Below the pieces are notes generated by a model that saw nothing but the letters and a program-made list of their open reading frames with translations, was not told the DNA's origin and did not search any database. 64,000 nucleotides of DNA, taken from NCBI GenBank assembly GCA_021774625.1, contig JAJFIV010000007.1:1-64000 (forward strand), given 5' to 3'. The DNA is from Alphaproteobacteria bacterium. Lineage in GTDB: Bacteria > Pseudomonadota > Alphaproteobacteria > Sphingomonadales > JAKSBY01. Shown here one piece after another: positions 33,944 through 47,005 of this stretch. How positions within the stretch are numbered: position 1 is the stretch's first letter; each line of letters starts with the position of its first letter. The position numbers and the translations under genes were made by a program.

Positions 33944-35191
33944 TTAGGAAAGCGAGAATTTCAGCAGCTTGATGGCTTCCGAATTCACCACGCCGCCGCC
34001 GACCCGTTTGGTGGCATAAAAATGCACAAACGGCTTGTTGGAGAATGGATCCCGTAAAATCCGCGTTCCCGTCCGGTCGGTGACGATATAGCCGCGATTG
34101 AAATTGCCGAATGCAACGGAAGAACTGCCCGAGGCGCGGTCCGGCATATCTTCCGCCTCAATGACCGGGTAGCCCAGCAAGGTTGCCGGGGCATTTTCCG
34201 CGAAGCCCGGACGCCACAGATAATTACCGTCCGCATCCTTGAATTTGCGGATTTCCGCCACCAGATTGGTGTTCATGACAAAGCTGGCGCCCGCCCGGTA
34301 AACGGGCCTGAGACTGTAAACCAGATCAACCAGAATATCGGCCGGATCAGCCCCGGAAAATGCCCCGTCCACTCCGGTCGCCACATGCTGCAGAGTTCCG
34401 AAAGCCCGGCCTGTATCCTCACTCGCCGATGTGGCATAATCGAGGAAACCACGTGGCTTGTTCACACCATCGCCATTGACGAAGGCCGTCCCCTCTTTCT
34501 GACCGAATTCATTGGCCAGTTCCCCGGCAAGCCATTCCTCCACATTGAAAAAGGCGTCATCCAGCATGGCCTGACTGGCCGCAGGATTGGCGTATAACTC
34601 GCCAAGCGGCGGCACCACCTCGGCAAATTGCGGGCTATCGGTCTCAAGCCGTGCGCCGGTCTCGGAAGCCCAGCCGGAGGCTGTATCGCTCAGATTGACC
34701 AGCTTGCGGTAATTGGCGGTCCCGATCTGCACCACATTGGCGATGCTGCGGATCGGTGAAATATCCTTCAGCAGGCTTTCGATGCTGTGATCCAGTTCCT
34801 CCGGCACTGTATACCCGCCTTCCGCATCGACACCGATAGAAAGCGCCTTTTGCTCCAGATCGCCAAGACCGCTTTCATAGCCTTTGCGCACATACCGGTC
34901 ATAAAAGGCGGTCTTATGCGCCTTCTGTTCCGGCACTTCCAACCCGCCCTTGCCAAGATAGGGGCGGTTCGAAGCGATCTGCAGCTTATCGATGCGGCTT
35001 TGCAGACCGCTTACATCCTGATTGATCCGGGCCAGTTTTTCTTCCAGCACGGTGTCCACATAGCCGCGGGAACGGCGTTCGATATCCGCCGCATTATTGG
35101 CGGATTTAAATTCTTCAAAAGTACGGCCCAGATTTTCTACGGCCGCTTTTACTTCATAGGCCGAGGGCGTTTGGCGTGACGCGTGTTTCAC
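33944..35191 (-). CDS. GTA gp5-like major capsid protein (HK97 fold)
   Basis: A 415-residue capsid precursor. Residues 1-100 are charged and coiled-coil forming, the scaffold part normally removed by the protease. The HK97-fold core starts near 115 (SIGVDAEGGYTVPEEL) and includes GTANYRKLVN and FVNGDGVNKPRGFL. A GTG start overlaps the protease stop codon (GTGA) and is preceded by GGAGACA. This is the most abundant virion protein. Confidence 0.95.
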   Translation of the reverse strand: MKHASRQTPSAYEVKAAVENLGRTFEEFKSANNAADIERRSRGYVDTVLEEKLARINQDVSGLQSRIDKLQIASNRPYLGKGGLEVPEQKAHKTAFYDRYVRKGYESGLGDLEQKALSIGVDAEGGYTVPEELDHSIESLLKDISPIRSIANVVQIGTANYRKLVNLSDTASGWASETGARLETDSPQFAEVVPPLGELYANPAASQAMLDDAFFNVEEWLAGELANEFGQKEGTAFVNGDGVNKPRGFLDYATSASEDTGRAFGTLQHVATGVDGAFSGADPADILVDLVYSLRPVYRAGASFVMNTNLVAEIRKFKDADGNYLWRPGFAENAPATLLGYPVIEAEDMPDRASGSSSVAFGNFNRGYIVTDRTGTRILRDPFSNKPFVHFYATKRVGGGVVNSEAIKLLKFSLS

Positions 35192-35850
35192 AATGTGTCT
35201 CCTGTTGATGATTTGAGTTTGTTCTCTAATGTGCGGATGGCTGTCACCACCGCCGGCCAGCCATCCCCGGCATCCCGCCGGGTGCTCAGCCCTGAAAATC
35301 CCTGTGCCGCGACCGCCTTGGCCCCGGCACGGGAGAGCCCGCCTGCTTCCCGCAGAAAGGTCTCTAACTGTCGGATGGTTGGAAAATCAGACGCCTTGAA
35401 AGCACTGATCCGCGCCTCCGGCTGCATCGGGAAGGTCACCAGGGACACCTCCCACAAATCCACATACAGCAGGATCCGTATTCCTCCGGTTTCATCCATC
35501 CGAGATTTGACCGTATGAAAGCCGATGGAAAGGCCATCAAGGGCCCCTGCCCGCATCAGGCGCAGCGCTTCTTCCGCTTTTTTCACGCCCGGCAACAAAT
35601 GGCCTTTGACGAAAAGACCGCGCCGGTCTTCAAAAATATCCTCAATAGTGCCGATGGGTTCGGTCGGGTCATGCTGCCATAAAAGTTTGATGCCTTTCGC
35701 GCCCCGTTCCAGAATGGACCGGCTGAAAGCTCCGGGGGCGACAATATCCCGTCCCTGATCAACGGCTCCAAACAGGCTGGCATAGCCCTCAAAGCTCCCG
35801 TCGGCGCCCACCGCCTTCACTTCAAAACGCGCATCGAACTGGTGTGACAT
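35188..35850 (-). CDS. GTA gp4-like HK97 prohead protease
   Basis: A 220-residue serine protease that matures the head. The start is the ATG at 35850 (MSHQFDARFEVK). The fold motifs GYASLFGAVDQGRDIV, LLWQHDPTEPIG (catalytic His) and LSIGFHTV (catalytic Ser) are present. The C-terminal 60 residues form a helical tail. The frame stays open further upstream, but that extension runs through DUF6127 and has no family resemblance. It overlaps the capsid gene by 4 bases. Confidence 0.93.
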   Translation of the reverse strand: MSHQFDARFEVKAVGADGSFEGYASLFGAVDQGRDIVAPGAFSRSILERGAKGIKLLWQHDPTEPIGTIEDIFEDRRGLFVKGHLLPGVKKAEEALRLMRAGALDGLSIGFHTVKSRMDETGGIRILLYVDLWEVSLVTFPMQPEARISAFKASDFPTIRQLETFLREAGGLSRAGAKAVAAQGFSGLSTRRDAGDGWPAVVTAIRTLENKLKSSTGDTL

Positions 35851-35879
35851 GGAACGTCCTTTAAAGAGGTTTAGAGTCT

Positions 35880-36215
35880 CTAACCGGAAAAGGGCGGGGC
35901 TTTGAGACGAACGGCGATCCCCGCCAAAATCACCAAAATCAGCACGGTCGTCGCCCAGCGGATGATCGTGCGAAAAGCCGTCCTGCGGGCATCCCGCCAG
36001 GCTTCCAGAAGATTCCGGAGTGCACGTATATCCTCGCCCGCCGCCCGGTCCTGCAAACCGCAGTGAGCCAGGGCCCGCGCCGCGCCCAATTCGCACGCCT
36101 CCTCCACCAGGGCTCTGAGGGTGGCAATATCGTTCCCCTGCAGCCGCGCCTGTTCGACCAGGCCGGTCAGGATTGCCGAGCGGCCAGGAAATGGATCGTC
36201 TGTCATGAGGCTCAT
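35880..36215 (-). CDS. DUF6127 protein (GTA gp3.5 position)
   Basis: A 111-residue protein with a helical, charged N-terminal part (DIATLRALVEEACELGAAR) and one C-terminal transmembrane helix (about 86-105). This resembles the DUF6127 family coded between portal and protease in GTA clusters. The ATG at 36215 is preferred over a TTG at 36221. The role is unknown. It is on the operon side of the cargo block that separates it from the intact portal gene. Confidence 0.75.
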   Translation of the reverse strand: MSLMTDDPFPGRSAILTGLVEQARLQGNDIATLRALVEEACELGAARALAHCGLQDRAAGEDIRALRNLLEAWRDARRTAFRTIIRWATTVLILVILAGIAVRLKAPPFSG

Positions 36216-36303
36216 GTCCAAAAGGAAAGGGCGGACCCTTTTTCAAAGGCCCGCCCAGGGTGGTTAGGGTGGGGTAAACTTATCGTGTCAATTCAACGCG
36301 CCA

Positions 36304-36805: not shown

Positions 36806-36881
36806 CTTGCGCCGGGGATCTGGTCGCGATTATACACATCCTTGAGTGGTATTCAGTGAAAATGAACTATTAAAGTATTCC

Positions 36882-37985
36882 ATGCGCCGTTGGCTTTTAT
36901 TTTTCTTTGTCTCTTTATTCTTAACGCAATGCGCGAAAGAACACCTTCTGCATGACACTGAAAATCAACCAACCAGGGAAACCGAATGGGAAAAGCGAGC
37001 AGAAAAATTAAATCCAGCCAGTGCTAACATACATACAAAATACACCCGCATATTGGACGACCTACACAATGGGCGATGCGAATCAGCTTTAAAAGCCCTG
37101 AAGATAAAGGACAAAACCGAACAGCAAGTGAGGCTGTATGAAGCAGCAGGTCTTTTTCTAGCCGGTCTTTGTGTAGAACGTGACACCGGGCTCGCCGCAG
37201 ACCTCCTCAGGCAATATCTTGATAATAACCCCTGGAATCCCTGGGCGCTGGCCCGTCTCGTCGATCTATACTGGCGCGGTGACGGCATCCTACAGGACCG
37301 CACTCAAGCAAAGCGCTTGTTCCGTCGTGCGGTGATCGCTCTTGGTCCCCGCGACCCTCATCCCGATGAAATCAGATTGCAACCCCATTTTTATTGGGCA
37401 ATTCCTCGGGAAGAAATGAATCGAAGATTTTATCACCTGCAAGTTGGCTCTTGGGATATTCCGGCCCCTTTACAGAACGAACTAGCCTGGCTTAAAGAAG
37501 CCGAGACGCAAGGTGGCCCCAAAATTATGGGAATCGCCGAACATCTCCTCGCAGGCACTGGCGGTTTTGAAAAAGACGAAGAAGCCGCCTATTATTGGTT
37601 CCAAGATGCCGTCCATTTATACGATTATATACCAGCAGCCTACACCTACTTTCATTTGTCCAAGCGCCTGGGTAAAAATCCCAAATCAGCGTTTTGGGCT
37701 TTCACTGAACTTGCGCTCAAAGATGACGTCCGAACTCAAAAGGAAATACTCTCCATTCTAGAGAATGGTGATGATTATCCTAAACGGGACTGGGCGCTTT
37801 ATTACTGGATGCAACGTCTGAAAAAAAACGGCATCCCCATAAACGAGAGACGACTGCAGGAAATATCCTGGAAACTCACAGCAGACGAGCGGCGGATTTT
37901 GGACCATTGGGACCTGGGAACATCCGCTTCAACCACTCCACCTTTTACCTTTTATCATGAAAATTTTAAAAAGCGCGGAAAATGA
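36882..37985 (+). CDS. Sel1/TPR-like repeat protein, probable lipoprotein
   Basis: A 367-residue protein on the strand opposite the GTA genes. A hydrophobic N-terminus (RRWLLFFFVSLFLTQC) resembles a lipoprotein signal, though the residue before Cys is not usual. The rest is helical with Sel1-like units (LVDLYWRGDGILQDRTQAKRLF is trimmed here to key parts YWRGDGI and AKRLFRRAV; AEHLLAGTGGFEKDEEAAYYWF, key part GTGGFEKDEEAAYYWF). Sel1 proteins mediate protein contacts. It is flanked by portal sequence on both sides and overlaps the next, convergent gene by 31 bases. Confidence 0.72.
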   Translation: MRRWLLFFFVSLFLTQCAKEHLLHDTENQPTRETEWEKRAEKLNPASANIHTKYTRILDDLHNGRCESALKALKIKDKTEQQVRLYEAAGLFLAGLCVERDTGLAADLLRQYLDNNPWNPWALARLVDLYWRGDGILQDRTQAKRLFRRAVIALGPRDPHPDEIRLQPHFYWAIPREEMNRRFYHLQVGSWDIPAPLQNELAWLKEAETQGGPKIMGIAEHLLAGTGGFEKDEEAAYYWFQDAVHLYDYIPAAYTYFHLSKRLGKNPKSAFWAFTELALKDDVRTQKEILSILENGDDYPKRDWALYYWMQRLKKNGIPINERRLQEISWKLTADERRILDHWDLGTSASTTPPFTFYHENFKKRGK

Positions 37986-38560: not shown

Positions 38561-39934
38561 CTAGCCGTTTGCTTTCCTGTGGCTATCCCGCACCTTCCCG
38601 TCATCCGCCGTCCGCCAGATTTTGACCTTGGGCTCTTCCGCCATTTTCCGGTGCAGGGCGCCGCTCGATTTAAAAGGGCCCGGCGGGGCGACCGCCGGCG
38701 CCCATGTCAGATCATCACCGCCCTCGACCGGCTCCAGCCCCACCGTCCGGCGCTTCTCATTTGGTGTCAGGAAGGGGGCGCTGCCGATGCGGTTCCACAA
38801 GGCTTCCCGCTCGATACTCAATGCCGGAATCGCGTCACGGTCCACATCAAGCCGCAGGTCCGCGCCGAATTTGGGGGCCAGCCAGTTATTCAGCGCCGCC
38901 GCCGTCTTGTCGATCAAAGGCAGCAGCGTCAGCCGCCATAACGCCCGGTTCGCCTCCTGATAATTGGCGAAAGTGTTATCGCCGGGAATGCCCAGCAGCA
39001 TCGGCGGCACCCCGAAAGCCAGGGCAATTTCCCTGGCCGCCACATGCTTCGACTGGATAAATTCCATATCCGCCGGGGAAAAGGCAATCTGCTGCCATTT
39101 CAGGCCGCCCTCCAGCAGAAACGGCCGCCCGGCATTTTGCGCCCCCTGATAATGGGCCTCCATCTCGTCTTTTAAACGCTCGAACTGGGTTTCGCTCAAT
39201 GATCCGGGTGCGCCGTCTTTCGGCTCGAACACCAGTGCGCCCGAAGGCCGCGCCGCATTGTCCAGCAGAGCCTTGTTCCAGCCTGCCGCGGCATTGTGAA
39301 TATCAATGGAACAGGCCGCCGCCTCCAGCGGGCTCAGACCATAATAATCATCCGCAGGGTGAAAGGTCTTCAGATGCAGAACCGGCGAAGCGCCGCTCAC
39401 ATCATCCACCGGGAAGGCCACCGTCCGGCCGCTCACCGTAAAATCATACCGCGCGGGCCAGCCCTTCGGCCCCGGAATAATCTTCATCCGGTCCGGTCTT
39501 AAGCCATAAAGTTCGCCGGGCTGACCATCCGCCCGTTCGACCGCCTCCAAAAAACTGTTGCCGGAAATCTGCAAATGGGCATAGGCCGCTTCCAGAAGCT
39601 CGTTTCCGCCCTGAAACGGATTGGGTCTGGCCAGCAGGTCCAGAAGCGGATGCCGCAACAGCCGCTCATCCCCCCGCCAGAGAAGCAGCGGCACAGAGGC
39701 GGCACATTCGGCAATCAGTTTGACCGAGCGATGGGCAATGACATTTTTGCGAAATCCCTCGCGCATCAATGCCTCGTGCGACCTCGCGGACCAGCTTGGC
39801 CCGCCAAAGCCCAACCAGAAACCTCCGGACTTCCCCGTTAACGGACCTGCGGCGCTGTATTTCTTTTCCGGTGCGGAAAACCAGTTGTCCAGCATGCGGC
39901 GTAATCGCGCCATGCCCATACTCCCATTTTGCAT
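38561..39934 (-). CDS. GTA gp3-like portal protein (HK97 family)
   Basis: A 457-residue portal through which DNA is packaged. Typical motifs are HRSVKLIAECAASVPLLLW, LLARPNPFQGG, GLRPDRMKIIPGP, GLSPLEAA and FGVPPMLLGIPGDNTFANYQEA. The C-terminal 60 residues are a variable tail. It appears intact. A diverged duplicate of residues about 345-375 is at 36709-36805, beyond the cargo block. Confidence 0.94.
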   Translation of the reverse strand: MQNGSMGMARLRRMLDNWFSAPEKKYSAAGPLTGKSGGFWLGFGGPSWSARSHEALMREGFRKNVIAHRSVKLIAECAASVPLLLWRGDERLLRHPLLDLLARPNPFQGGNELLEAAYAHLQISGNSFLEAVERADGQPGELYGLRPDRMKIIPGPKGWPARYDFTVSGRTVAFPVDDVSGASPVLHLKTFHPADDYYGLSPLEAAACSIDIHNAAAGWNKALLDNAARPSGALVFEPKDGAPGSLSETQFERLKDEMEAHYQGAQNAGRPFLLEGGLKWQQIAFSPADMEFIQSKHVAAREIALAFGVPPMLLGIPGDNTFANYQEANRALWRLTLLPLIDKTAAALNNWLAPKFGADLRLDVDRDAIPALSIEREALWNRIGSAPFLTPNEKRRTVGLEPVEGGDDLTWAPAVAPPGPFKSSGALHRKMAEEPKVKIWRTADDGKVRDSHRKANG

Positions 39935-40468: not shown

Positions 40469-41815
40469 TCAAATCATTCTGATTCTCGGGGGCGCCCTTC
40501 CCTGTAGAACCAATTCAGTAACTGCCCAGACCAGGGCGTCAAGCCGGTCCGGACTTTTCTCGCTCACATCCCCGGTGTAACCGCTAAGCTGATCCTCCAG
40601 CGCGGAAAATGCGCCCACATGATGGACCAGCCCCCGTTCATAGAGGGCCGCCACCGGTTCGGCCCGGGCAATTTTACCGCGGCTCGCCCGCAGGGCCTTG
40701 TAACTGATATCCGGCGCAATCTGACGCATCAGGGTTTCCACCAGATCGCCGCCATTATTGACCTCGGCGACAATCCGGTCGGCCCGCCAGTCCTGATAGG
40801 CGGCAATCGCCTTTTGCGCCCAGCGGTTGGGTGTTAGTCCCTGCTCGGTCAGATCATCCAGTATGTAGACATGACCGCCCGCAGCCAGACCCGCAACAAT
40901 GATCCCGCAGGCATCCGCATCAGGCCCATGACTTACCGGCGGATCCACCGCGACGACGATGCGCGCCAGGTCCACCGCGCAGGCTGCACGATGCCGGTCA
41001 ATCACATCCCGTGACCACAGGGCGCCCGGAATATCCTCCAGAAACTCGCCTTCCAGCTCCTGTCTGCCAAGCCGCGATCCTTCATAAAGCGCCCGCACCT
41101 GATCGAGAAACCGGCCTGAAAGATTCCTTTTGTTTTCAAATGTGCTGCCGCGGGTCATCACAGTCCCAGGCTCCGCCATCAGCCTTTTTAAAAGCGGGAT
41201 GGGCCGAGGGGTTGTGGTCACTGTTATTTGCGGTTTTGCGCCCTGCCGCAGACCCAGAATAAGATTGGACCAGGCTTTTTCGCCGTTTTTCCATTTGGCA
41301 AGCTCATCCGCCCAGGCCGCGCCATGCTGCGGTCCCCTGAGCTGATCCGGTTCGTCCGCCGAGTAGAGAAAACCCTGAATGCCGTTGGGCCAGATCAACC
41401 GGCGCCGCGACGGTTCGTAATGCGGCCTGAAATCCGGATGAGAAACCGGCAGGAGGCCGGATTCCCCGGCCAGCATCACCTCCCTGGCATCGCTTGCAGT
41501 CTGACTGATCAGCGCGATCCGGCCCGGCGCAAGCGGCGGCGCCAGAAACGGGCTTTGTCCTTCAGCAAGGGTGCGGATCCATTCGGCACCCATGCGGGTT
41601 TTGCCAAAACCGCGACCCGCAAGAATCAGCCAGCAAAACCACTCACCTTCCGGAGCAATCTGCTTTGGACGGGCCCAAAAACCCCAGTCATGCAAAAGCG
41701 CGGCACATTCTTCATCACTCAGGCCTTCTATAGCCGCCGATACTCTGTCCAGCTCGATGGAAAGAAGCGAGTCCGCAAGCGACAGCTCCGGGTCAGGACC
41801 AGGGACAGGGCACAT
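40469..41815 (-). CDS. GTA gp2-like large terminase
   Basis: This 448-residue motor packages DNA and cuts it. The ATPase part shows Walker A GRGFGKT (67-73), a Walker B region ending in ADE (AAWADELAKW) and the coupling motif VTTTPRPIPLL. The C-terminal RNase H-like nuclease begins with IVVAVDPPVSHGPDA. I start at the ATG at 41815 (MCPVPGP), 7 bases after the TerS stop; a TTG 39 bases upstream is possible. GTA terminases package random chromosomal DNA by headful. Confidence 0.95.
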   Translation of the reverse strand: MCPVPGPDPELSLADSLLSIELDRVSAAIEGLSDEECAALLHDWGFWARPKQIAPEGEWFCWLILAGRGFGKTRMGAEWIRTLAEGQSPFLAPPLAPGRIALISQTASDAREVMLAGESGLLPVSHPDFRPHYEPSRRRLIWPNGIQGFLYSADEPDQLRGPQHGAAWADELAKWKNGEKAWSNLILGLRQGAKPQITVTTTPRPIPLLKRLMAEPGTVMTRGSTFENKRNLSGRFLDQVRALYEGSRLGRQELEGEFLEDIPGALWSRDVIDRHRAACAVDLARIVVAVDPPVSHGPDADACGIIVAGLAAGGHVYILDDLTEQGLTPNRWAQKAIAAYQDWRADRIVAEVNNGGDLVETLMRQIAPDISYKALRASRGKIARAEPVAALYERGLVHHVGAFSALEDQLSGYTGDVSEKSPDRLDALVWAVTELVLQGRAPPRIRMI

Positions 41816-41822
41816 GAGTAAT

Positions 41823-42269
41823 TTACTGCGTTTCCTTATGGCGAAGCTCTGCAAGACGGGTCAAAAGTTTGCCCCGGGCGCTTTCCTTTTCAGCCCTGCC
41901 TGTTTCAGCGATATCTGACTCGTCGGCCCGGACAAACAGGTTTTCCTCGCCGCGGTGGCGCTTCAACAGAAATATGCCCAATTGATCGCTGTAGGTTTTA
42001 AAGGCGCCGCACTCCTTGCCGCCAAAATAAACCGGTTTTTCGACCCCTTCCATGGCGCGGCGGCGCAGTTCCGCCTCCAGGTCATCCATTGCCTCTTGCA
42101 AGGCCAATTCCCAGCCTGCGCGAAATTCATCATCCTTTTTGCGAAGCTCATAGACTTTGTTTTTGGGAGCACCAACGGCCCGCGCCGCAGCACTGACATT
42201 TGCCGTTCTGCTCAGCACATCGAAAAACATCGCTTTCTTACGCTGCGTCCAATATTTGCGCCGCGCCAT
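41823..42269 (-). CDS. GTA gp1-like small terminase subunit
   Basis: A 148-residue protein with a helix-turn-helix at about 20-45 (TANVSAAARAVGAPKNKVYELRKKD; key parts NVSAAARAVG and VYELRKKD) and an acidic/arginine-rich middle (DDLEAELRRRAMEGVEKPVYFGG). This matches TerS-like proteins that bind DNA and stimulate the large terminase. It is the first gene of the cluster, 84 bases after the promoter -10. The ribosome binding site is weak. Confidence 0.85.
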   Translation of the reverse strand: MARRKYWTQRKKAMFFDVLSRTANVSAAARAVGAPKNKVYELRKKDDEFRAGWELALQEAMDDLEAELRRRAMEGVEKPVYFGGKECGAFKTYSDQLGIFLLKRHRGEENLFVRADESDIAETGRAEKESARGKLLTRLAELRHKETQ

Positions 42270-42581: not shown

Positions 42582-42881
42582 ATGAAACGGCTTCTTCTAA
42601 CCTCAGGCATATTTCTTGCGCTTTGCCAGACGGTCGGCGCGGCGGACGAAAAACAGTCAGATCCACCTGCCGTGAAAAATACAGCTTCTTTTCGGGGCAT
42701 TGAAATGAAGGCTCTCAATGCGAATAAGGGCGTTACCGATTGTCTGGCAGAAGAGCCCTGCAGGGATGCGAAAACGGTGCAGCGGACAAAAATGGCCCTT
42801 GCTCTGCTTTATTTGGGCATTCGCAATAATTGCGGCCAGCAGACCTGCAAGCTTCACGTCACAACGGTGAAACAGGAATAG
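42582..42881 (+). CDS. Small secreted hypothetical protein
   Basis: A 99-residue protein. A signal peptide (ending VGA-A, about 21) is followed by about 78 residues with four cysteines (CLAEEPC and CGQQTC), likely to form two disulfides in the periplasm. No family is recognised. It is divergent from the GTA operon and followed by a terminator at 42924. The upstream DNA is AT-rich; no classical promoter stands out. Confidence 0.65.
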   Translation: MKRLLLTSGIFLALCQTVGAADEKQSDPPAVKNTASFRGIEMKALNANKGVTDCLAEEPCRDAKTVQRTKMALALLYLGIRNNCGQQTCKLHVTTVKQE

Positions 42882-42950: not shown

Positions 42951-43670
42951 GCCCTCATAATGCTCCCGCAACCTCTGCAGTGCGATTCTCAACACAATTT
43001 TCGCCGAACCGTGATGGCCAGCCGAGCGTACGCTCGGCCTCTTCCAGCCCTTCTAGATGACAGCAGACCCTGATCAAAATATCGGACAGGTCGCTTCCCA
43101 CTGTCTGAACGGCCTTATCGAAGCGGCACTTGGCTGATATCTGCGTTTCCGTGGGATCCGCCTTTACAAATTGCCCCTTTTTTCCTGCCAACGAGGGAAG
43201 GGCGGTGTAGTTGCGCGTAACACTGGGTGCCAACTGCGCCAGTTCGAAATCAGTGCGCAGCCGCTCGCCGGCATCATAATAATCCTGGCTGATCAAAGGC
43301 TCACCGTCACGGCCTTTCCTTTTCAACAGCCATCCAAGGGGCGTTTCCGCAACATTTTTCCTCACCTTTTGCCAGGACCGTCCCTCTTTGATTTCAGTGG
43401 TGACAACCCGCCGATGCTGTTCGGCAAAAGGATTGACTATCACCCCGCCGCCCGGCCCGGCCGCCGTCTGCCTGGCATCCAGCCGCCGCATATAGGCACG
43501 GCCCATATCAGTCGCCACAAGCGCACCTTCACCCGCCTCAGCGACCAGTTCCATTCTCTGCAGTTGTTGAATCACATTTTCCGGAACGGCGAGGCTTCCT
43601 ATATAAACGCAGTCATCCCTGCGCCGAGTCGCCGCTTTTTGGGCTATAAGTTTGCGCAGGCACTTGTGAG

Positions 43671-44602
43671 TGTCCAACCCGAAACTAATTGAGTGATATC
43701 AGTGGTTTGTGATTCAATCGGATTGTCTATAATTCGAAGGAGATCACAATGGTCTGGACTGATATCACCCGCCCCCGATATGAACGCAAAACGGGACGTT
43801 ATGCAAGTGATTGCAGCGACAGGGAATGGCAATTAATTGAACCGTTTCTGCCGCTGGCGAAGCACATTGGCCGCCCGCGCACGACGCAGTTAAGGAATGT
43901 GTGGGATGCGATCCAGTATATGGCTTCCACGGGCTGCCAATGGGGTATGATCCCCAATGATTTTCCCCCGCCCTCCACGGTGCAGCGCTATTTCTATGAC
44001 TGGCGTGACAATGGCCTATTGCACCAGATCAATCATGCCCTGGTGATGGCGGCGCGTGAAGCGGGGGGCCGGGAGGCCTCACCAAGCGCTGGTGTCATTG
44101 ACAGCCAGAGCGTTAAAACCACGGAAAGCGGCGGCGTTTCGGGCTATGATGCCGGTAAGAAGATCAAGGGCCGCAAACGCCATATCGTCACCGATACGAT
44201 TGGTTTGCTGATCGGATTTGTCATTCATGCCGCCGACATCCAGGACCGTGACGGGGCAGTTCACGTGCTCCATTCAATCCGCCGCACACACCCGTGGCTG
44301 CGCCATGTCTTTGCGGATGGAGGTTATGCCGGGCCAAAACTGCGCGGAGTATTGGAAAAGATCGGTTGCTGGACAATGGAAATCGTCAAGCGATCCGATG
44401 CGGCAAACGGATTTGAAATCATCCCCCGCCGCTGGGTTGTCGAGCGCACTTTTGCCTGGCTCGGCCGGTGCCGCAGACTGGCAAAAGACTGGGAAAAATC
44501 AATCCTCTCAGCCGAAAGCTGGCTCCTCATCGCTCACATCAGGCTGGTAACAAGGCGCCTGGCAAGGTATTGAATCTATAGAAATAGTTTCGAGTCAGAC
44601 TC
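43671..44602 (+). mobile_element. IS5-family insertion sequence
   Basis: The 932-bp element carries one transposase gene. Inner ends are imperfect inverted repeats: GTCCAACCCGAAACTA at 43672-43687 and the reverse complement of 44585-44600 (GTCTGACTCGAAACTA), 13 of 16 matching. TGAG occurs just outside both ends (43667-43670 and 44603-44606), a likely target duplication; because both ends can also be read as GAG, the edges are uncertain by 3 bases. It interrupts the DUF6456 gene. No second copy is in the window. Confidence 0.87.
43749..44573 (+). CDS. IS5-family DDE transposase
   Basis: A 274-residue single-frame transposase. The N-terminus is a DUF4096-like segment (SDREWQLIEPFLP, GCQWGMIPNDFPPPSTV). 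The catalytic triad is visible: D in GVIDSQSVK, D in VFADGGYAG and E in WVVERTFAWL. AAGGAG lies about 7 bases before the ATG. It appears intact, so the element may still move. It reads opposite to the interrupted DUF6456 gene. Confidence 0.95.
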   Translation: MVWTDITRPRYERKTGRYASDCSDREWQLIEPFLPLAKHIGRPRTTQLRNVWDAIQYMASTGCQWGMIPNDFPPPSTVQRYFYDWRDNGLLHQINHALVMAAREAGGREASPSAGVIDSQSVKTTESGGVSGYDAGKKIKGRKRHIVTDTIGLLIGFVIHAADIQDRDGAVHVLHSIRRTHPWLRHVFADGGYAGPKLRGVLEKIGCWTMEIVKRSDAANGFEIIPRRWVVERTFAWLGRCRRLAKDWEKSILSAESWLLIAHIRLVTRRLARY

Positions 44603-44701
44603 TGAGAAAATGCAGATAATTTTTCATCATTACTTTGTTTTATTGAGTGTTTATTTACCATGCAGACTCCGTTTTTATCAATCATTAGGATCGTAAATTT
44701 A

Positions 44702-44736
44702 ACCTAATAGGTTATATATAAAATAACCCATTAGGT
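44702..44736. promoter_or_regulatory. Paired operator-like dyads
   Basis: Two sites of the form ACCTA-N-TAGGT lie at 44702-44712 (ACCTAATAGGT) and 44726-44736 (ACCCATTAGGT), their centres 24 bases apart. The larger segment is itself an inverted repeat (14 positions, 13 matching). It sits between the divergent DUF6456 start (44661) and the XRE gene (44803), in TA-rich DNA suited to overlapping promoters. It is the likely binding site of the XRE protein. Confidence 0.75.
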
Positions 44737-44802
44737 AAACCTCTTTTATTATCAGCTGAATTATGGTACTTCGCCCGAGAGTAAAATCGTTAGGATGGTG
44801 AT

Positions 44803-45378
44803 ATGCTGCAAAGCCGCTTAAGAGAAATCCGCAAAGCCAAGGGCCTGACCCTGCAGGAAGTTGCGGACAGGATCAAACCCCATGGCACAACCGCACAGAC
44901 CATCGGCCGCCTGGAAACGGGCCGGCGGACGCTGTCCGTCGAATGGATTGAACGGATTGCCGATGCACTTGACTGCGATCCATCAGCGCTTCTTGCTTTG
45001 CCCGAGGGCGGAGACCTGGAAATATCAGGTGATGTGTCCAAGGGTGGCTGTTTCGAAAAAAAAACCATGGGCACTCTTGCCTTGCGCCTCACCGCCAAGG
45101 ATTCTATCGCGCTTTATATTTCCGATGGCATGGGTCAATACCGGCCCGGTGATATTGTGGTCTGCAACCGTCTTGCTGAGGCTGATTTTTCCAAGGCGGA
45201 GGGTAGTGACAGCCTGATAATGACGGAAGGCGGCCGGCAGTATTTTGCCAAAATTGCCCGGGGTGGCAAAAAAGGCACATTCACTTTGTTGCCCCTCGCG
45301 GCATCGGGCAAGGTCATTCCCGACCGGATCCTGACAATGATTGCCCCGGCTGTCATGCTGTACCGGGACTTGTGCTAA
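44803..45378 (+). CDS. XRE-family regulator with S24-like domain lacking the catalytic serine
   Basis: A 191-residue CI-like regulator. An XRE helix-turn-helix is at 5-60 (LTLQEVADRIKPH, TIGRLETGRRTLS). The C-terminal S24/LexA-like domain has the fold signature SDGMGQYRPGDIVV at 107-120, where peptidases read GDSM: the serine is replaced by glycine (G109), so self-cleavage is unlikely. Lys150 is kept. It is divergent from the DUF6456 gene over the paired operators, and is the best candidate for a GTA repressor, possibly like Caulobacter RogA. That role is inferred. Confidence 0.82.
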   Translation: MLQSRLREIRKAKGLTLQEVADRIKPHGTTAQTIGRLETGRRTLSVEWIERIADALDCDPSALLALPEGGDLEISGDVSKGGCFEKKTMGTLALRLTAKDSIALYISDGMGQYRPGDIVVCNRLAEADFSKAEGSDSLIMTEGGRQYFAKIARGGKKGTFTLLPLAASGKVIPDRILTMIAPAVMLYRDLC

Positions 45379-45490: not shown

Positions 45491-47005
45491 ATGGTCGCCG
45501 ATATTGCCGCGCTATGTAAATTTATCCACGCCGCCCAGTGTGAACGGGGGCTTTCCGTCCTGTATCTGCAAGGCAAAAGGGCCGGTAACCTTAGAAAATT
45601 TGCCAACCAATCGCATGAAATGGATGATGCGTGGCAAAGAACCGAGAATAATTCAAACGGCCCCGGTCCTTTGGCTCAGATTGGCGCTCAGCTTCCTAAA
45701 ATCAGGGATTATCGCGCAAAGATTGCCGATGGAACCGCTGATCTTGCTGAGACATTCCGTTTTTATTCCGGCGAAATCATTGGCCCGGCAATAGACGCCG
45801 TGGCGGCCTATGCCTCCACCAACCCGGCCTACGATCCCGCACGGGTCAGTGCTTTCATCAATTTGCTGCACTGGAAGGAAAGGGCCGGCCAGGAACGCGC
45901 AGTGGGTGTTCTGATCGCGGACGGCGCCCAAGCCCCCAACGAAAATAACCGGCTGATTCACCTTATTTCGGAAATGGCCGGTTATGAACGCATGTTCCTC
46001 GCTCTGGCTGACGATACGCTCCGGCAGCATTATGAACGGTCTATTGGCGCGAAGCCGGCTTTTAAACAAATAGCCGGGATCGAGGAAGCTGTTTCCCGCG
46101 GCGGTACTGATAAGGTTTTGGCTGGAATTACGGCTGATGACTGGTTCGACCTTTTAAGCGCCAGAATGGATCTTTTGCAGACCCTTGCACTGGAATTTAT
46201 CACGCATTTGCCCGTACAATCCGGCCTGGCCGCAGCTGCCATCGACCCCGCCCTTTCACCAAACGTCACCGCACGGCTGGAGGATTTGAAAGCCCTGCCT
46301 TTGTTAAAGGGGTTGAATGCGGAATGCCTCCTCGCCGTATTGCAGGAAGCACGCCTGAATATTTATGACCGAGGCGCATTGATATTTATGCAGGGGGAGC
46401 CAGCGGATCGTTTTTATGTGGTTCTGGAAGGCTGGGTCAAGCTTTTGAAAGGCAATGCGGACGGCGACGAATCGGTGATTGAAGTGTTGACGTCCGGTGA
46501 TGGTCTCAGCGAAGTCGCAATTTTCCGCGACAGCTTTTACCCGGTCACCGCCGAGGCCGTGGAAAAGGCGGTCCTGATGTCCCTGCCTGCACACTGGGTC
46601 CGGGCCAGGATCAAGAAGGATAAGGATTTCGCCATCAATATGCTGGCCGCCGCCGCCAACCGGTCAAAATCCCTGATCAGCCAGTTTGAACAACTGACTC
46701 TGAAAAATGTCACCCAGAGGGTCGGCCGTTTTTTATTGAAGCAGTTTCTGGAAAGCGGCGCCGAAAAAACCCAGCTGAAGCTGCCGCTGGAAAAGTCGGT
46801 GATTGCCGCTTATCTCGGCATGAAGCCGGAAACCTTCTCCCGCACGTTGCAGGCGCTGCGCAATCAGGGCATTTCCATTGAAAAAAATGTGGTGACGCTT
46901 CCGGATGCGCTGGCGCTTTGCACCTATTGCGATATGGAACTGGCCGGGCGCTGCCCGCGCAGCAATACAGATGCCTGTCCTGATCCTGATTGCGCTTACA
47001 GTTAG
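45491..47005 (+). CDS. NIT-domain Crp/Fnr-type regulator with C-terminal cysteine cluster
   Basis: A 504-residue one-component regulator. Residues about 1-260 resemble the NIT nitrate/nitrite-sensing domain (FIHAAQCERGLSVLYLQG, ALLHWKERAGQERAVG-type motif LHWKERAGQERAVG). Then come a cyclic-nucleotide-binding fold (about 265-385) and a Crp helix-turn-helix (VIAAYLGMKPETFSRTLQAL). The last 30 residues hold six cysteines (CTYCDMELAGRC, CPDPDC), possibly a metal or iron-sulfur site. I start at the ATG at 45491 with AGGAGA 7 bases upstream. No nitrate genes are nearby. Confidence 0.85.
   Translation: MVADIAALCKFIHAAQCERGLSVLYLQGKRAGNLRKFANQSHEMDDAWQRTENNSNGPGPLAQIGAQLPKIRDYRAKIADGTADLAETFRFYSGEIIGPAIDAVAAYASTNPAYDPARVSAFINLLHWKERAGQERAVGVLIADGAQAPNENNRLIHLISEMAGYERMFLALADDTLRQHYERSIGAKPAFKQIAGIEEAVSRGGTDKVLAGITADDWFDLLSARMDLLQTLALEFITHLPVQSGLAAAAIDPALSPNVTARLEDLKALPLLKGLNAECLLAVLQEARLNIYDRGALIFMQGEPADRFYVVLEGWVKLLKGNADGDESVIEVLTSGDGLSEVAIFRDSFYPVTAEAVEKAVLMSLPAHWVRARIKKDKDFAINMLAAAANRSKSLISQFEQLTLKNVTQRVGRFLLKQFLESGAEKTQLKLPLEKSVIAAYLGMKPETFSRTLQALRNQGISIEKNVVTLPDALALCTYCDMELAGRCPRSNTDACPDPDCAYS

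Follow-up and report, generated by a model that had tools for sequence, protein, structure and literature searches.

Here, we propose that the 191-residue XRE protein encoded at 44803-45378 (plus strand) of a 64,000-nucleotide stretch of a Sphingomonadales genome (the window) is likely to act as a dedicated, cis-linked repressor of the transcription of gafZ, the GTA activator gene, or of gafYZ in other orders. An earlier note on this DNA had described a CI-like repressor with paired operators at a GTA locus. This description holds in that a CI/LexA-like protein with a probably dead S24-like domain adjoins gafZ, and it needs amending in that the degeneracy of the domain is a property of the whole family.

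The XRE open reading frame is intact. Its product carries an N-terminal HTH (approximately residues 1-66; HTH_31, E=2.4e-12), which is the sole domain detected by the Pfam search, with no S24 match in the C-terminal half. The call of a degenerate S24/LexA-like domain at approximately residues 70-190 is therefore made from the predicted structure and the family alignment. The AlphaFold model, built with 30 homologues as input, is confident (mean pLDDT 89.6), and residues ~70-190 superpose in VIA-align on LexA C-terminal domains with Z of about 11 (3k2z, 1jhe, and 8gms; 10.8-11.5 over several entries), with 108-114 residues aligned at an rmsd of 2.7-2.9. The protein thus has the N-terminal HTH and LexA-like C-terminal domain of the S24/LexA-CI repressor fold, and the S24-like domain claimed for it earlier is confirmed by structure, as the HTH is by Pfam. 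A phage or plasmid origin was considered and rejected, the matches being distant (one Sphingomonas plasmid at 37.5%, and phage hits to the HTH only).

By homology, the DUF6456 gene beside the XRE gene is gafZ, the gene for a GTA activator/antiterminator. The remnant in the window matches PF20057 (E=1.7e-38, Pfam), and Caulobacter GafZ matches the same remnant at E=1e-21, so that the broken gene encodes the DUF6456 domain, homologous to that of Caulobacter GafZ, by which GafZ/GafA proteins are recognised. In Caulobacter genomes (named records), a 123-residue GafY is followed by a 222-residue DUF6456 protein (loci L082/L083), as in the known gafYZ arrangement. GafA homologues are likewise annotated as DUF6456 proteins in the literature (PMC9638019, PMC9765227). 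No GafY was found in the extended loci of the window's order, and a PF08299 search of the window genome returned DnaA and weak matches only; a divergent GafY may lie elsewhere in genomes of this order.

The earlier note had called the DUF6456 gene broken, and it is so twice over. Its 5' remnant (44606-44661, minus strand), which starts with an ATG at 44661 (MVNKHSIKQSNDEKLSAFS) and has a KLSAF motif in common with an intact homologue (L008), is cut off after about 20 codons by an IS4/IS5-type IS element (43670-44602, plus strand) with a DDE transposase at 43749-44573, imperfect terminal inverted repeats, and TGA target duplications at 43667-43669 and 44603-44605. The 3' remnant lies in an open reading frame at 42955-43677 (minus strand), the first few codons of which are IS sequence, and a separate frameshift near 43000 leaves the last ~18 profile positions in another frame. 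Relatives keep intact copies of gafZ, and in this genome the activator looks dead.

Given these lesions, is the repressor still at work? One reading is that the whole module is already decaying in this genome and that the XRE gene no longer serves any function, which we hold to be possible but rather doubtful. The two gafZ lesions favour it, as does the lack of an XRE match in G001, the one same-family genome searched. However, the XRE open reading frame and its operators are intact, and the GTA head genes examined in the window have long open reading frames and match their domains in full. As a statement on this strain only, decay is also compatible with the repressor explanation. With gafZ doubly broken, the GTA switch is probably locked in its off state, and the repressor would at most regulate itself; it has probably outlived its target here, and its deletion in this strain is not expected to switch the GTA on.

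The association of the repressor with gafZ is conserved well beyond the window. In 26 of the 29 loci of the window's order that carry the XRE protein, its gene is divergent from the DUF6456 gene, and in 14 of 20 extended loci of the order gafZ runs straight into the small and large terminase genes and usually portal. The window is arranged alike, with the GTA small terminase (41823-42269; phrog_4044), large terminase (40469-41854; Pfam), and portal protein (38561-39934) followed by the prohead protease and major capsid protein (35188-36246 and 33944-35191, together 33944-36246), all on the minus strand, the two terminases being assigned also by synteny within the order. Outside the order, the XRE protein faces DUF6456 in all 16 full-length loci, with a gafY homologue between them in 13. 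Distances among XRE proteins correlate with those among TerL proteins (Mantel r=0.73, 0 of 2000 permutations), which is consistent with vertical co-inheritance of the two and may reflect only shared vertical descent. Several IMG/VR contigs hold the same XRE/DUF6456 module, some with TerL and portal. Four of these, labelled viral (L118, L119, L125, and L126), have repressor, DUF6456, and terminase in GTA order and are probably GTA loci mistaken for viruses.

Between the XRE gene and the broken DUF6456 gene lie two dyads, which we predict to be operators. O1 (44701-44713, AACCTAATAGGTT) is a perfect AACC-N5-GGTT, and O2 (44725-44737, AACCCATTAGGTA) follows at a spacing of 24 bp. The earlier note had described two copies of ACCTANTAGGT 24 bases apart; the two dyads and their spacing stand, and the second is not an exact copy, with one mismatch in its core (44726-44736, ACCCATTAGGT) vs none in that of O1 (44702-44712, ACCTAATAGGT). 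Within the window, the excess of such dyads is by itself only moderate (2 at up to one mismatch vs 0.32 expected, with 4 of 100 shuffles reaching 2), and it is the comparative evidence that makes them strong candidates. When gapped palindromes were counted de novo in the 250 bp preceding the XRE gene at 30 loci of the window's order, with 200 shuffles, AACC-N5-GGTT ranked first, being exact in 18 of the 30 regions vs a shuffle maximum of 5 for any palindrome. The operator is thus better written in this form, ACCTANTAGGT being a local version of a motif whose centre varies. The 24-bp spacing recurs in 5 near loci, whereas no spacing exceeded 4 in the shuffles. At up to one mismatch, six of 60 genomes have the combined pattern ACC-N5-GGTTAT-N8-TAACC-N5-GGTAA, each at a single place that is always just upstream of the XRE gene; the pattern was derived from 5 of these 6 loci, so that it adds genome-wide specificity and is not an independent discovery. 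At 2 mismatches, further matches appear which are background-like, as in the control.

Many other carriers have a single dyad ~30 bp from the XRE start, and the AACC-N5-GGTT motif was not found in every carrier. Outside the window's order, no palindrome upstream of the XRE gene stood clearly above shuffles. At four loci there (L053, L060, L062, and L063), TTAC/TACG-type dyads that are likewise not clearly above shuffles precede the repressor gene, which suggests that the operator has shifted along with a change in the recognition helix. A search for sigma-70-like promoters between the XRE gene and gafZ found none. The scan of the window genome for further operators, which the earlier note had advised, gave no second regulon: the other two ACCYANTRGGT sites lie inside open reading frames, and the total is not above that of the reversed control.

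Could the dyads belong to GafZ or to another factor, with the XRE protein acting elsewhere or only on itself? At the GTA promoter of Caulobacter, GafZ does depend on a near-palindromic element (PMC11150451). However, that element (GCGCCCG-CTGGCGC) is unlike AACC-N5-GGTT, and the dyads precede the XRE gene in every one of the six paired-site genomes, persist in the window despite the broken gafZ, and, where single, keep close to the XRE start; we therefore think this assignment unlikely.

A repressor of this kind has been described in Caulobacter. RogA (CCNA_00080) is a 213-residue protein with an HTH and a LexA/CI-like domain missing key residues, and it directly represses gafYZ (PMC9632790). 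A six-frame S24 search of four Caulobacter genomes returned LexA, one 214-residue protein with an HTH and degenerate S24 residues, and noise; the sequence used here as RogA is this 214-residue protein, chosen by elimination as the only clear S24 protein besides LexA and not by locus tag, and we refer to it and its relatives as RogA-type. The window XRE protein has no meaningful BLASTP match to it (E>1), the XRE family profile matches it weakly (11 bits) and over the C-terminal fold only, and its HTH differs. RogA-type proteins are absent from the window genome, give three weak hits only among 60 relatives in the window's order, and are common elsewhere in the class (126 of 387), where most of the copies inspected have kept the dyad intact. 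As a side observation, those of other alphaproteobacteria (L106-L117) mostly retain GDSM and AK, unlike the Caulobacter copies, and Caulobacter RogA may thus have lost self-cleavage secondarily.

Might the XRE protein then be the RogA orthologue of this lineage, moved beside its target? It resembles RogA in pairing an HTH with a LexA/CI-like domain that probably has no working catalytic residues, and its presumed target is that established for RogA (PMC9632790). Against this stand the sequence comparisons above, the GDSM and AK kept by most RogA-type relatives outside Caulobacter, and the presence of both families in 13 of the 16 XRE carriers outside the window's order. The last of these makes them distinct families and also disposes of the idea that they exclude one another. 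Orthology by sequence is accordingly rejected, and we give the relocated-orthologue reading very little chance. The equivalence to RogA proposed in the earlier note thus fails as a matter of descent (E>1, a different HTH, and no RogA-type protein here). As a matter of function it remains the best inference, the XRE protein probably working as RogA does, in repressing gafZ/gafYZ. The two also differ in their setting: rogA and gafYZ have locus tags far apart (CCNA_00080 and CCNA_01111/01112), while the XRE gene adjoins the GTA cluster and is transcribed divergently from gafZ.

LexA and UmuD have a serine, then eight residues, then a conserved GD. In the register anchored on this GD, S107 of the XRE protein falls at the LexA serine position, G109 two residues later, and K150 at the lysine position, so that a Ser/Lys dyad is formally present. 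The earlier reading, which aligned SDGM with GDSM and took the catalytic serine to have become glycine, is insecure, since this register puts S107 and not G109 at the serine position. The lysine that it held to be retained is present as K150 and is not conserved, position 150 being K in 14 of 46 homologues and R in 30. Position 107 is S in 9 of the 46, and both residues occur together in 3, of which the window protein is one. In addition, neither Ala-Gly nor Cys-Gly occurs in the window linker, whereas self-cleaving S24 repressors have a conserved Ser/Lys dyad and a cleavage site of this kind. With the Ser/Lys pair unconserved over the 46 homologues and the linker lacking either dipeptide, self-cleavage is unlikely. 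The earlier claim that the protein cannot self-cleave is to this extent upheld, as a feature of the family and not as a mutation of this copy: the S24-like domain appears degenerate across the whole XRE family and is probably dead. That the protein is a normal, self-cleaving CI repressor of the SOS type, with S107 and K150 as a working dyad as the GD-anchored register would allow, is highly improbable given how rarely the two residues co-occur, the arginine in 30 homologues, and the linker.

How, then, might the proposed repressor of gafZ work? An XRE dimer would bind each AACC-N5-GGTT dyad through its N-terminal HTH, and the degenerate LexA/CI-like C-terminal domain would serve in dimerisation or would bring together the dimers on the two sites, which are 24 bp apart. 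From its place between the two divergent genes, the protein would block the gafZ promoter and probably tune its own. Since GafY and GafZ are activators of the GTA cluster, as shown in Caulobacter, holding gafZ off would keep GTA particles off. Release of the repressor would probably not be by RecA-stimulated self-cleavage, the Ser/Lys pair having been lost.

The XRE locus has likenesses to several known systems. With lambda CI and LexA the protein shares its domain order and predicted C-terminal fold (Z 10.2 for the lambda CI fragment 2hnf), and with phage immunity regions the locus shares paired operators in a divergent control region. It differs from the former in its unconserved Ser/Lys pair and its linker without a cleavage dipeptide, and in that its gene stands at a GTA activator and not in a replicating phage. 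The locus has a DUF6456 (GafZ) activator gene in common with the GafA/GafYZ loci of RcGTA and CcGTA; gafA and gafYZ, however, are separate from the structural cluster in R. capsulatus and C. crescentus, whereas gafZ of the window type is followed at once by TerS-TerL and has a dedicated repressor gene beside it. The Caulobacter XRE proteins RtrA, RtrB, CdxA, and CdxB are able to repress gafYZ (PMC10688885), and CdxB, of 132 residues, has a short dimerisation domain at its C-terminus (PMC13236601). These proteins have many chromosomal sites, unlike the 191-residue window protein with its LexA-like domain and the one paired site found for it.

GTA production kills the producing cell, so keeping the GTA off is a central question. 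In the literature that we consulted, direct experiments support a dedicated GTA repressor in one case only, that of Caulobacter RogA, and RogA homologues are reported to be enriched in orders that do not include Sphingomonadales. The XRE family is a second, sequence-distinct candidate family of GTA repressors, for which a precise operator can be predicted; gene order links it to gafZ/gafYZ throughout the class and, within the window's order, to the GTA structural cluster as well. The kind of protein, a dead-S24 XRE repressor of GTA activators, is known; this family is set apart by its descent, its linkage, and a defined operator. Our literature search, which was incomplete, found no published description of the linked family. 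The family offers a testable route to how GTAs are switched on in lineages with no known production signal, and it bears on the domestication of a prophage switch. Tentatively, and with less than even confidence, we suggest that RcGTA-like GTAs of several alphaproteobacterial orders retain a relic of the immunity region of the ancestral prophage. This relic would consist of a CI-like repressor and its paired operators, facing away from the activator and, within the window's order, placed immediately upstream of the terminase genes; the repressor would have lost self-cleavage and so become uncoupled from SOS. Were this so, RogA would be a separate, unlinked layer of control, and it is the scattered gene order of Rhodobacter and Caulobacter that would be derived.

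Three further open reading frames of the window may be recorded. A plus-strand frame at 36846-37985, which lies within the GTA cluster between the portal and protease genes and runs opposite to the cluster, encodes Sel1/TPR-like repeats; L143 has a distant match to it downstream of portal. A 99-residue frame at 42582-42881 (plus strand), located between gafZ and the small terminase, has a signal-peptide-like start and no family match. Downstream of the repressor, at 45491-47005, a Crp-family regulator is fused to a NIT (nitrate/nitrite sensing) domain.
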